Positions 23,925 to 52,847 of a stretch of 64,000 bases of DNA are shown here, piece by piece (position 1 is the stretch's first letter; each line of letters starts with the position of its first letter). The notes beneath the pieces are model-generated. The model made no database searches and was not told where the DNA came from. It worked only from the letters and a program-made list of their open reading frames with translations. The position numbers and the translations under genes were made by a program. Where the stretch lies: positions 186,001 to 250,000 of the forward strand of contig NZ_FNMV01000002.1 of assembly GCF_900106645.1 (NCBI RefSeq), given 5' to 3'. Source of the DNA: Flavobacterium degerlachei (GTDB lineage Bacteria; Bacteroidota; Bacteroidia; Flavobacteriales; Flavobacteriaceae).

Positions 23925-23958
23925 TTTCAGAATTATTCGAAATAGTTCAATATATTTG
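23925..23958 (+). promoter_or_regulatory. Promoter of the cysE leader
   Basis: TATATTTG at 23951-23958 fits TAnnTTTG. A TTTC at 23925-23928, 22 bp upstream, is the only -33-like match. Predicted initiation is near 23965, about 28 bases before the leader peptide ATG. Confidence 0.55.
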
Positions 23959-23991
23959 TTTCATTTTTTATTTAAACCAAAAAATACAGTC

Positions 23992-24063
23992 ATGAGCAAC
24001 AGTCAACTTATTTTCAACTTAAACGTTTCAAATTCCTACTGGAATTGTTGTTGCCATTACTAA
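23992..24063 (+). CDS. 23-aa poly-cysteine leader peptide upstream of cysE
   Basis: ATG 23992 encodes a peptide ending SYWNCCCHY followed by TAA. Three consecutive Cys codons (TGT TGT TGC, 24046-24054) sit just before the end. The in-frame 60-codon extension to 23881 is rejected because the probable transcript starts near 23965. It lies 48 bp before the serine acetyltransferase start, and the Cys codons overlap a hairpin arm (see the regulatory feature). It is probably a cis-acting sensor of Cys-tRNA charging rather than a functional protein. Confidence 0.75.
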   Translation: MSNSQLIFNLNVSNSYWNCCCHY

Positions 24064-24099
24064 AAACATCATTTTCTACGTCCTTTCTATTAACAATTC
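24031..24099 (+). promoter_or_regulatory. Putative cysteine-responsive attenuator/translational switch
   Basis: Two mutually exclusive pairings exist. Hairpin A pairs AATTCC (24031-24036) with GGAATT (24041-24046) across a 4-nt loop. Hairpin B pairs GAATTGTT (24042-24049, covering the first Cys codon) with AACAATTC (24092-24099), just 12 bases before the cysE ATG. A ribosome stalled at the Cys codons would cover the 5' arm of B and free the cysE initiation region. The pairings are seen; regulation is inferred. Confidence 0.6.
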
Positions 24100-24111
24100 A
24101 ACCCCATAATC

Positions 24112-24903
24112 ATGACAAAAGATCTGATTATCAAAAATATCGCCGCTTTAAAAAGCCACACCAATATTAATTACGGAATCAAAACAAAAACGGAAGTATT
24201 TACTGAGAAACTCTTCTATACTTTATTTGATTCGAATGCTCCATTAAGCGAAAGCATTGACGAACTGAAGGTTCTTTTCAAAGAAATATCAGTAGTAGCA
24301 TGCAAAAAGCCAAAGGGAATATGCGATTCTATTTGGGATAGTTTTCTTGAAAAATTACCTTCCGTACTCGAAAAGCTAAATGCAGATGCCAATTTCTTTT
24401 TGGAAAATGACCCTGCCTCAAATAGCGTACAAGAAGTATACCTTGCTTACCCTGGGTTTTATGCCATTGCGATTTATCGTCTGAGTCATGAATTATACCT
24501 TTTAGACCTGCTGTTATTCTCCAGATTAATGAGTGAATATGCCCACCGCATCACTGGAACGGATATCCACGCAGGTGCCAGTATTGATTCGCCTATTTTT
24601 ATAGACCACGCTACAGGTATTGTAATTGGTGAGACTACCGTGATCGAAAAAAACGTAAAGATTTATCAGGGAGTAACTTTGGGAGCATTAAGTGTCAGCA
24701 AAGAAATGAAAGATAACAAAAGACATCCTACTGTAGAAAAAAACGTCTGTATTTACGCGAATGCAACAATTTTAGGAGGAGAAACAGTAATTGGTAAAAA
24801 CAGTATTATTGGCGGAAACGCATGGATTACCAAGTCCATTCCCCCAAGATCATTGGTTACCAATACTACAACTACAGAAGTAAAAATAAAAGAGCTAAGA
24901 TAA
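24112..24903 (+). CDS. cysE: Serine O-acetyltransferase
   Basis: Makes O-acetylserine from serine and acetyl-CoA, the first step of cysteine synthesis. The 263-aa product has a helical N-terminal half (1-130) and a left-handed beta-helix of hexapeptide repeats (about 155-250). Catalytic His/Asp motifs appear in GTDIHAGASI, IDHATGIVIGET and a later GGNAWITKS. The gene follows the poly-Cys leader and precedes cysM by one base, forming a cysteine-synthesis operon. Confidence 0.92.
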   Translation: MTKDLIIKNIAALKSHTNINYGIKTKTEVFTEKLFYTLFDSNAPLSESIDELKVLFKEISVVACKKPKGICDSIWDSFLEKLPSVLEKLNADANFFLENDPASNSVQEVYLAYPGFYAIAIYRLSHELYLLDLLLFSRLMSEYAHRITGTDIHAGASIDSPIFIDHATGIVIGETTVIEKNVKIYQGVTLGALSVSKEMKDNKRHPTVEKNVCIYANATILGGETVIGKNSIIGGNAWITKSIPPRSLVTNTTTTEVKIKELR

Positions 24904-24904
24904 T

Positions 24905-25792
24905 ATGGAGCCAAAAAAATTATTAGAATTAATTGGCAATACGCCTTTAATGGAGACTGTCAATTTAATCAAAAACAAGAATGTAAAACTCTTGTTGAAG
25001 CTCGAAGGGAACAATCCTGGAGGAAGTGTCAAAGACCGCGCAGCCTACAACATGATTGCATCAGCCTTAGAAAGAGGGGACATTAAAAAAGGAGACAAAC
25101 TAATTGAAGCCACCAGCGGAAATACAGGAATAGCACTAGCAATGATTGCGCAGTTATTCAATATTGAAATAGAATTAGTCCTGCCAGAAGACTCTACTAA
25201 AGAGCGTACTCAAACGATGAGAGCTTATGGTGCAACAGTCATTTTAACCTCCGCAAAGGAAGGAATTCTAGGGTCTAGAGACTATGCCGACAAGAAAGTG
25301 GCCGAAGGTGGATATGTGATGCTAAACCAGTTTGCTAATGATGACAACTGGAAAGCCCATTATAAAACTACCGGTCCAGAAATTTGGAACGATACTGATG
25401 GAACTGTAACCCATTTTGTTGCGGCAATGGGAACCACTGGAACGGTTATGGGGACTTCTACTTATTTGAAAGAGAAAAATCCAGCCATACAAATCATAGG
25501 TGCACAACCTAGTGACGGCTCACAAATTCCAGGAATCAGGAAATGGCCACAGGAATATTTGCCTAAAATCTTTAATGCTTCTAAGGTAGATCGTATCGTT
25601 GAAGTGAGCGAACAAGAAGCCCGTGCGATGACCAAACGTTTAGCTCTTGAGGAAGGCGTTTTTGCAGGAATGAGCAGCGGTGGATCAGTTGCTACGGCGC
25701 TTAAAATTGCTGAAGAACTGGAATCGGGAGTGATAGTAGCCATCATATGCGATCGAGGCGATCGCTATTTATCATCTGATTTATTTGATTAA
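24905..25792 (+). CDS. cysM: Cysteine synthase (O-acetylserine sulfhydrylase B)
   Basis: A PLP enzyme converting O-acetylserine plus sulfide to cysteine. The 295-aa product has the PLP Lys in GGSVKDRAAYN, the asparagine loop in EATSGNTGIAL, and the phosphate-binding GTTGTVMGT loop. It lies one base after cysE. It ends one base before the GNAT gene's start, so three genes share one transcript. The CysM-type choice over CysK rests on length and overall pattern, and is moderately sure. Confidence 0.92.
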   Translation: MEPKKLLELIGNTPLMETVNLIKNKNVKLLLKLEGNNPGGSVKDRAAYNMIASALERGDIKKGDKLIEATSGNTGIALAMIAQLFNIEIELVLPEDSTKERTQTMRAYGATVILTSAKEGILGSRDYADKKVAEGGYVMLNQFANDDNWKAHYKTTGPEIWNDTDGTVTHFVAAMGTTGTVMGTSTYLKEKNPAIQIIGAQPSDGSQIPGIRKWPQEYLPKIFNASKVDRIVEVSEQEARAMTKRLALEEGVFAGMSSGGSVATALKIAEELESGVIVAIICDRGDRYLSSDLFD

Positions 25793-25793
25793 A

Positions 25794-26246
25794 ATGATAA
25801 CAATTACAAGAACTAGCCCGGAGAATGTTGATTTTACTGCCCTCATAAAGGAACTTGACAACGATATTGAAAAACGTGACGGAGAAGAACACAGCTTCTA
25901 CGCGCAGTTTAACAAAACGGACAACATCAAACATGCAATTGTGGTTTATGAAGACCAAAGAGCCATTGGTTGTGGTGCTTTTAAATTTTATAAAGGCGAT
26001 GTTGCCGAAATAAAAAGGATGTTTGTTAATCCAGAAGACCGCGGTAAAGGCATTGCCTCAAAAATACTGAAAGAACTGGAATCATGGGCAAGAGAAGAAA
26101 ACTTCAATAGCTGCATACTGGAAACAGGCAAAAGATACCCTGAAGCCATTGCTCTGTACAAGAAAAATGGATACAGCATAACCGCTAATTACGGACAATA
26201 TGAATTAGTTGAAGATAGTGTTTGTTTCCAGAAGACAATCTCTTAA
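25794..26246 (+). CDS. GNAT family N-acetyltransferase
   Basis: A 150-aa acetyltransferase starting at MITITRTSPENV (ATG 25794; a TTG three codons earlier is less likely). The acetyl-CoA loop is VNPEDRGKGIASKILKEL, the Q/R-x-x-G-x-G/A type, followed by AIALYKKNGYS near the C-terminus. The substrate is unknown. It is the third gene of the cysE-cysM transcript, so an amino-acid or thiol substrate is possible. Confidence 0.88.
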   Translation: MITITRTSPENVDFTALIKELDNDIEKRDGEEHSFYAQFNKTDNIKHAIVVYEDQRAIGCGAFKFYKGDVAEIKRMFVNPEDRGKGIASKILKELESWAREENFNSCILETGKRYPEAIALYKKNGYSITANYGQYELVEDSVCFQKTIS

Positions 26247-26267: not shown

Positions 26268-26300
26268 AAAAAGGGCTCTACTTAGTAGAGCCCTTTTTTA
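26268..26300. terminator. Bidirectional terminator after the cys operon
   Basis: A 14-bp stem, 26268-26281/26285-26298 (core AGGGCTCTAC), has a 3-nt loop and A/T runs, placed between converging genes. Confidence 0.9.
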
Positions 26301-52542: not shown

Positions 52543-52703
52543 TAATACGTTTTTCTCTTTTTTCTATTTTCTCTACTCTCTTTCTTCTTTCCTCTCCCCT
52601 CTATTTTCTATTCTCTATTCTCTCTCCTCTTTCTTCTCTTTCTTCTTTCTTCTCTTTCTTCTTTCTTCTCTTTCTTCTTTCTTCTCTTTCTTCTCTACTC
52701 CCT
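52543..52703. repeat. Polypyrimidine tract with 16-bp tandem repeats
   Basis: Nearly all C/T over ~160 bases on this strand, with a 16-bp unit (CTTCTCTTTCTTCTTT) repeated about four times at 52633-52696. Two frames across it (52476-52732) are low complexity and rejected as genes. Confidence 0.85.
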
Positions 52704-52847
52704 ACCCCCGATTGAAACGAAAAGCATTTTAACAGGATTTCCTACTTTTTTATAGACCAAAAAGAGCGCCCAAAGGAAGCTCCTTTTTTGACTAATAAAA
52801 AAAGGCAAGACGATAAAATCTTGTAGTGGAAAGCGGGAATTAGGTCC
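52698..52847 (+). repeat. Dispersed RNA-like repeat element, copy 2
   Basis: Matches copy 1 (37455-37600) in three ordered blocks: CTCCCTACCCCCGATTGAAA, the AAAGAGC/GGAAGCTCC hairpin and TTGTAGTGGAAAGCGGGA. It directly follows the polypyrimidine tract. Confidence 0.65.

Follow-up and report, generated by a model that had tools for sequence, protein, structure and literature searches.

A poly-cysteine leader reading frame recurring in front of cysE-cysM in Flavobacterium, a probable cysteine sensor without an intrinsic terminator

A short open reading frame with a run of cysteine codons near its end was found in front of the cysteine biosynthesis genes cysE and cysM of Flavobacterium degerlachei, and comparison of related genomes supports its recurrence within a part of this cysE-cysM lineage, where it is evidently under selection. 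Most probably (at roughly 80%), the leader serves cysE-cysM as a sensor of charged Cys-tRNA that works through the ribosome. When cysteine is scarce, the ribosome would stall in the cysteine run, and when it is ample the ribosome would reach the leader stop codon and depart; the stall would result in more cysE-cysM output, by which cysteine would be restored. Of this scheme, we infer that the leader is translated, that the ribosome stalls, and in which direction the response goes. The readout appears to use neither an intrinsic terminator nor a recognisable conserved hairpin, as judged from the sequences and their predicted folds. All coordinates refer to the window, which is the whole stretch of DNA that was analyzed (64,000 nucleotides).

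The original prediction had described a 23-residue frame ending in WNCCCHY, and this frame was located on the plus strand at 23992-24063 (MSNSQLIFNLNVSNSYWNCCCHY, 23 codons, the coordinates including the stop codon), 48 nt before cysE. Its cysteine codons, TGT TGT TGC at 24046-24054 of the same strand, are the proposed stall site and lie 58-66 nt upstream of the cysE ATG at 24112. The 48-nt spacer between the leader stop codon and cysE (24064-24111, plus strand) is terminator-free and poor in G (G 0.02, C 0.29). The cysteine run by itself is weaker evidence, since the 64-kb window contains seven frames of 8-60 residues with at least three cysteines in the last 10 residues, the leader frame counted. 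The Rfam scan of the window gave no match at the leader; the only Rfam match reported in the window was a Flavo-1 RNA at 52700-52844 (RF01705, 44.9 bits). A DNA match of 87% between 24062-24098 and five other genome sites, which represent an insertion-element-like repeat end, was judged to be due to chance. A near-identical insertion-element-like sequence end was seen at five places (L002, L003, L005, L006, and L007).

The gene following the leader was annotated as cysE, encoding serine O-acetyltransferase (24112-24903, plus strand), based on the NCBIfam model EPS_EpsC (152.8 bits, cut-off 150); its score against TIGR01172 cysE (159.2 bits) was under the cut-off of 210.65. The nearest named CysE found was that of F. 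frigoris PS1 (96%), and the CysE proteins of the two Flavicella loci (L196 and L212) were 82-83% identical to that of the window, the other genera examined being at 57-64%. The cysteine synthase gene cysM (24905-25792, plus strand) was assigned with NF008735 (482.3 bits, cut-off 413), and cysM was immediately 3' of cysE at 157 of 159 loci with room for it, second copies among them. A gene for a GNAT-type acetyltransferase (25794-26246, plus strand; TIGR01575 rimI, 43.9 bits, under the cut-off of 86.4) has its ATG 1 nt past the cysM stop codon and is probably the third member of the cysE-cysM unit. Past this gene, a hairpin GGGCTCTAC-TTA-GTAGAGCCC followed by six T residues was recognized by eye at 26273-26299, was absent from the terminator scan, and is the probable end of the unit.

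Recurrence of the leader was assessed in 398 genomes of the genus, 160 of which contained an ortholog of this cysE at E <= 1e-110; the upstream regions of 151 of these were examined. A leader was defined as an ATG frame of 15 or more codons that has three or more cysteines in its last 9 residues and ends 40-60 nt before the gene. By this definition an ATG leader was present at 13 of the 151 genus loci, and three further different leaders, in Flavicella marina, Flavicella sediminum, and Flavobacterium sp. 28A, came from named genomes and a family-wide search. In that search, an ortholog at E <= 1e-90 was present in 77 of 299 genomes and 28 additional loci were taken, two of which, both from Flavicella, carried a leader. 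Altogether, 24 of 259 loci qualified; 16 of them are different leaders, and the other 8 duplicate a locus already counted. No leader was detected at the 26 examined, about 60% identical orthologs from other genera, Flavicella excepted. Within the F. degerlachei genome, short cysteine-rich ATG frames at the sulfate-assimilation cluster (L327) and at four PF01053 loci (L319-L322) occurred only inside or antisense to genes.

The 16 leaders, that of the window included, encode 23-27 residues (for example MSNNHLFSNITFSISSWNCCCPS, MLKHPYSNLFFSKLPAFTKIYSCCCCH, MKQLQILFYTSAIIYTKWYCCCCF, MQINYSQDSFSFNSQTPLCHCCCCC, and MFSNKQQNTFHALLQYSLLRCCCCF), with the stop codon 46-52 nt and the first cysteine codon 64-76 nt before cysE. 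Conservation of the cysteine run in the cysE leaders of relatives had been named in the original prediction as a check, and it was borne out: each leader has three to six cysteines within its last 9 residues, and all 62 cysteines of the 16 peptides are located there, with none elsewhere. It is very unlikely that the frame is untranslated or idle and its cysteine run a chance TTG/TGT repeat. The pattern TGYTGYTGY is indeed common in the genome (611 places, compared with 219 for the reversed pattern), but the definition was satisfied in only 3 of 8000 dinucleotide shuffles of the upstream regions of the 16 leader loci, the leader register of these bases encodes 62 cysteines, compared with 8 and 0 for the two alternative registers, and the leaders are 16 different ones. 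The two cysteine codons are used interchangeably (42 TGT and 20 TGC) with cysteine kept in frame.

A working small cysteine-rich peptide, active in metal or thiol chemistry, would account for three to six neighbouring cysteines and is a still more improbable reading. Against it, the start methionine is the sole residue common to the 16 peptides apart from the cysteine run, amino acid changes dominate in close pairs, the distance to cysE is fixed, and the distribution over the tree is patchy. The 16 leaders diverge except among close relatives, and in close pairs the differing codons are mostly nonsynonymous (11 of 13 between the window and L038, for instance), so that the peptide itself is not conserved. 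Where a leader is present, comparison thus showed that the frame, the cysteine run, its register, and the spacing from cysE are retained, whereas the remaining residues of the peptide vary.

The leader is evidently dispensable, since 138 of the 151 genus loci are without an ATG leader by the definition used. In the window, a promoter-like block TTCGAAATAGTTCAATATATTTG at 23936-23958 of the plus strand includes a -7-like box TATATTTG at 23951-23958. The sequence TAnnTTTG is the -7 element of Bacteroidota. Transcription would start near 23965 as placed from this box, 27 nt before the leader ATG; across the leaders for which a box was found (13 of 16), the corresponding distance is 21-29 nt. The block core TTC[AG][AG]TAT[AC]TTTG was present upstream at 25 of the 151 genus loci. 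Across the window and the 24 further loci the block (TTCAAAATAGTTCAATATMTTTG) is unusually conserved and lacks a clear -33 element. It was considered as a regulon operator and rejected, there being no second genome match with fewer than three mismatches: the 19-base pattern AAATAGTTCAATATMTTTG had a single perfect genome match, that of the window, and the other 14 matches each carry three mismatches. Besides the five sites matched by 24062-24098, a sixth genome match (L004; 24 bases, 96%), which covers the -7 box of the promoter block, has the box in common and differs in the preceding bases. The upstream promoter block was present at 12 of the 13 genus loci with an ATG leader, and the two Flavicella leaders have a promoter-like sequence TTG-N(19-20)-TAnnTTTG in its place.

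Among the 138 leaderless genus loci, 122 carry TTACTTTT or TACTTTTA as a -7-like box, positioned between -56 and -37 relative to the gene (median -41). This near-gene box is located just 3' of the former leader stop codon, so a leader would go untranscribed from it. Intermediate arrangements were also found. At L046 an intact leader coexists with the near-gene -7-like box. Five of the 122 near-promoter loci (L031, L103, L128, L149, and L158) have no ATG start and retain cysteine codons and a stop codon at the place of the leader, and L009 and L041 have kept the upstream promoter and part of the cysteine codon region and are missing about 20 nt of the frame along with its start codon. Eight leaderless loci with the upstream promoter (L012, L019, L026, L055, L058, L111, L112, and L119) have a small predicted hairpin before cysE, of the type AGTAG..CTACT or GCAGAA..TTCTGC. 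The leader has a scattered distribution on the CysE tree, with 7 parsimony changes, 4 of which are forced by well-supported branches (7 and 3 in the first tree). Two identical proteins were dropped from the first tree, and the second was made from a subset of the near-promoter loci with 7 added rows. The distribution fits an old leader that was lost many times; gains or transfer may be alternative histories, and in Flavicella the leader and cysE-cysM were possibly transferred together.

Classical transcription attenuation, in which an intrinsic terminator lies between the leader and cysE, is barely credible for this lineage. The layout itself exists in the genus. In the F. degerlachei genome, a leader frame of hisG (MFTIQLHHHHFHSCSQAKC, containing HHHHFH; L344) and a Phe/Tyr-rich leader frame of pheA (MLNNRFYFSNTYYFFWKEGRDCRMVI; L345) are each followed by a strong hairpin and a T-run, so that by their sequences they would be classical attenuators, and for both genes in F. 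psychrophilum PMC9723704 has already reported structured 5' elements. In a second cysE lineage (46-59% identical), a cysteine leader frame with at least two cysteines is followed by a terminator at 6 of 20 loci examined (L306, L308, L309, L310, L311, and L313; for example MRTVALNAVICMCCLL and MMLFVCNMCCMMWKNPQSISIA); these six are candidate classical cysteine attenuators, with a looser link to cysteine since some of the frames contain just two cysteines. At the leader loci of the present lineage, by contrast, a terminator-like hairpin with a T-run was found at none of the 16 between -160 and +60, nor was a terminator present on the plus strand of the window between leader and cysE. The original description of this leader as not terminator-based thus stands. 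The same terminator test applied to -80 to 0 of the near-promoter loci was also negative (0 of 122). Flavobacterium therefore appears, from these sequences, to have cysteine leaders both with and without a terminator.

The mechanism first put forward was a translational switch of two mutually exclusive hairpins. Both exist as complementary sequence on the plus strand: hairpin A (24031-24036/24041-24046, 6 pairs) and hairpin B (24042-24049/24092-24099, 8 pairs) have 24042-24046 in common, and the 3' arm of B ends 12 nt before the cysE ATG. According to this proposal, hairpin B pairs the cysteine codons with the cysE start region, and a stalled ribosome opens B so that cysE is translated; this is unlikely. 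In its favor, the 8 pairs of B are perfect in the window and the helix is about as long by eye in L038 and L039, the innermost three pairs are formed by 13-16 of the 16 leaders, and three pairs show a double change, a number that was reached by 35 of 500 shuffles. Sliding the partner strand lowered the retained pairing from 74.2% to at most 50.8%. However, the 74.2% of pairs kept compares with 71.9% in column-shuffled controls (59 of 500), so the covariation of B that had been named as a check came out close to the controls, and RNAalifold gave no consensus fold for the leaders. The predicted probability of B was 0.03 in the window, rising to 0.08-0.12 when a ribosome occupied the leader start. 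For hairpin A, pair probabilities of 0.51-0.97 were predicted in the free window RNA, and its pairs were kept in 56.3% of cells versus 52.7% after column shuffling (76 of 500).

Also in favor of B, spacers paired better with their own than with swapped partners at p 0.036-0.076, and AACAAT was present before cysE at 8 of 16 leader loci versus 17 of 122 near-promoter loci (p 0.002, uncorrected for relatedness). Against this, the cysteine region paired with the cysE start at a mean z of -0.29 relative to shuffles (16 leaders), was not better with its own than with swapped cysE starts (p 0.09-0.17), and, measured against the starts of 45 other genes in the window, paired worse with that of cysE (mean z +0.64). 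The cysE start was predicted to be harder to open in leader transcripts than in those of near-promoter loci (5.18 versus 3.58 kcal; 4.63 versus 3.94 kcal for -36..+60), but at the equal length of -148..+60 the values were 5.13 and 5.47 kcal, respectively. When the leader start was occupied in the model, stalling reduced the opening cost of the cysE start by a mean of 0.49 kcal across 16 leaders before control, the largest effects being in L039 (2.9 kcal) and L196 (1.5 kcal). In the controlled comparison, however, a stall on the cysteine codons gave -0.32 kcal versus -0.39 in shuffled spacers (14 leaders), and with no ribosome on the leader start the stall hardened opening of the cysE start in the window from 4.5 to 5.5 kcal. 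An alternative pairing of the leader start with the cysteine codons, which the predicted folds of 12 of 16 leaders show prominently (mean z -1.0 versus shuffles and -0.71 versus other gene starts), was discarded, as it was no better than with leader starts swapped between species (p 0.11-0.32).

Of the proposed switch, therefore, the complementary sequences stood, while B is rare in the predicted ensemble, a consensus fold was not obtained, and opening by a stall was near control; as modelled, the two-hairpin switch is not supported. Hairpin B possibly contributes in the clade of the window itself, but it is not retained as the mechanism of the leader family.

The preferred reading, a ribosome stalled at the cysteine run of the leader, thus leaves several candidate readouts. 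The one ranked first, at somewhat less than even odds, is that the stall averts early Rho-dependent termination or loss of the transcript in the exposed G-poor 5' region; the ranking is due to the absence of a terminator, the lack of a fold switch, and the presence of a Rho gene in the genome (TIGR00767, 631.8 bits). This readout stays a guess because the composition of the spacer is the same in near-promoter loci. In the last 48 nt before cysE, C and G were 0.26 and 0.037 at 13 leader loci and 0.215 and 0.035 at near-promoter loci, and with the two groups alike, a low-G spacer is no evidence for a Rho site. In addition, a ribosome stalled in the cysteine run would leave most of the spacer exposed, so Rho fits only if its site extends into the leader. 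Weak pairing of the cysteine codons with the cysE start, as first proposed, is a doubtful readout, and some other readout has an appreciable, if minority, chance. It is also tentatively suggested that the fate of the transcript (continuation, retention, or translation) depends on where the stalled ribosome sits, which the 46-52 nt spacer would hold nearly constant relative to the cysE start, with no need of a terminator or hairpin. If so, this kind of sensor would serve two cysE lineages within the genus, its output involving a terminator in one and none in the other.

Shine-Dalgarno initiation is mostly absent from Bacteroidota. If the proposed sensor is real, cysteine would be sensed by a ribosome on a short open reading frame in a phylum where the usual hiding of a ribosome-binding site may not apply. 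The genus would also offer a natural experiment, the leader being kept, decayed, or bypassed by a nearer promoter among close relatives and another cysE lineage having cysteine-containing leader frames with a terminator, so that signalling by a stalled ribosome in the absence of a terminator can be tested directly. A recurrent terminator-free cysteine leader of cysE-cysM in Flavobacterium and Flavicella seems to be new, there being no report of a cysE leader in Flavobacterium or Bacteroidota among the titles and abstract beginnings searched, with partial journal coverage. A translational attenuator in Bacteroidota, as put forward at the outset, would not be a novelty, since the tetQ leader of Bacteroides is already listed as an attenuator controlling translation in PMC5418344; that leader answers a drug and not an amino acid.

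In the broad sense, the leader has what defines an amino acid leader attenuator by sequence, namely a run of codons for the end product before a biosynthetic gene, recurring in relatives. Like attenuators of the trp/his type, it is a short frame containing codons of the end product of the pathway, and unlike them it has no intrinsic terminator in the lineage of the window. In mycobacteria, stalled ribosomes reportedly block structures that hide the next ribosome-binding site (work of Canestrari et al., 2020), and no counterpart of such a structure opened by a stall was found here in fold, shuffle, or alignment tests. Leader-peptide attenuation upstream of amino acid operons of F. psychrophilum is reported in PMC9723704. 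For Rhodobacterales, PMC8632094 describes the uORFC-8-2 motif upstream of cysS, which has tandem cysteine codons in an upstream frame; that motif differs from the Flavobacterium leader in having two stems and a U run consistent with a terminator. Cysteine leaders were predicted in actinobacteria in 2005, where the same puzzle of the readout was stated (PMC1262725). There is a close resemblance to the poly-cysteine short frames of mycobacterial cys operons, work on which is cited in PMC13236596 and PMC9094748: in both cases a cysteine run is located near the stop codon of a short frame before cysteine genes, although the present leader belongs to another phylum and, if the promoter assignment is right, its frame is not on a leaderless transcript.
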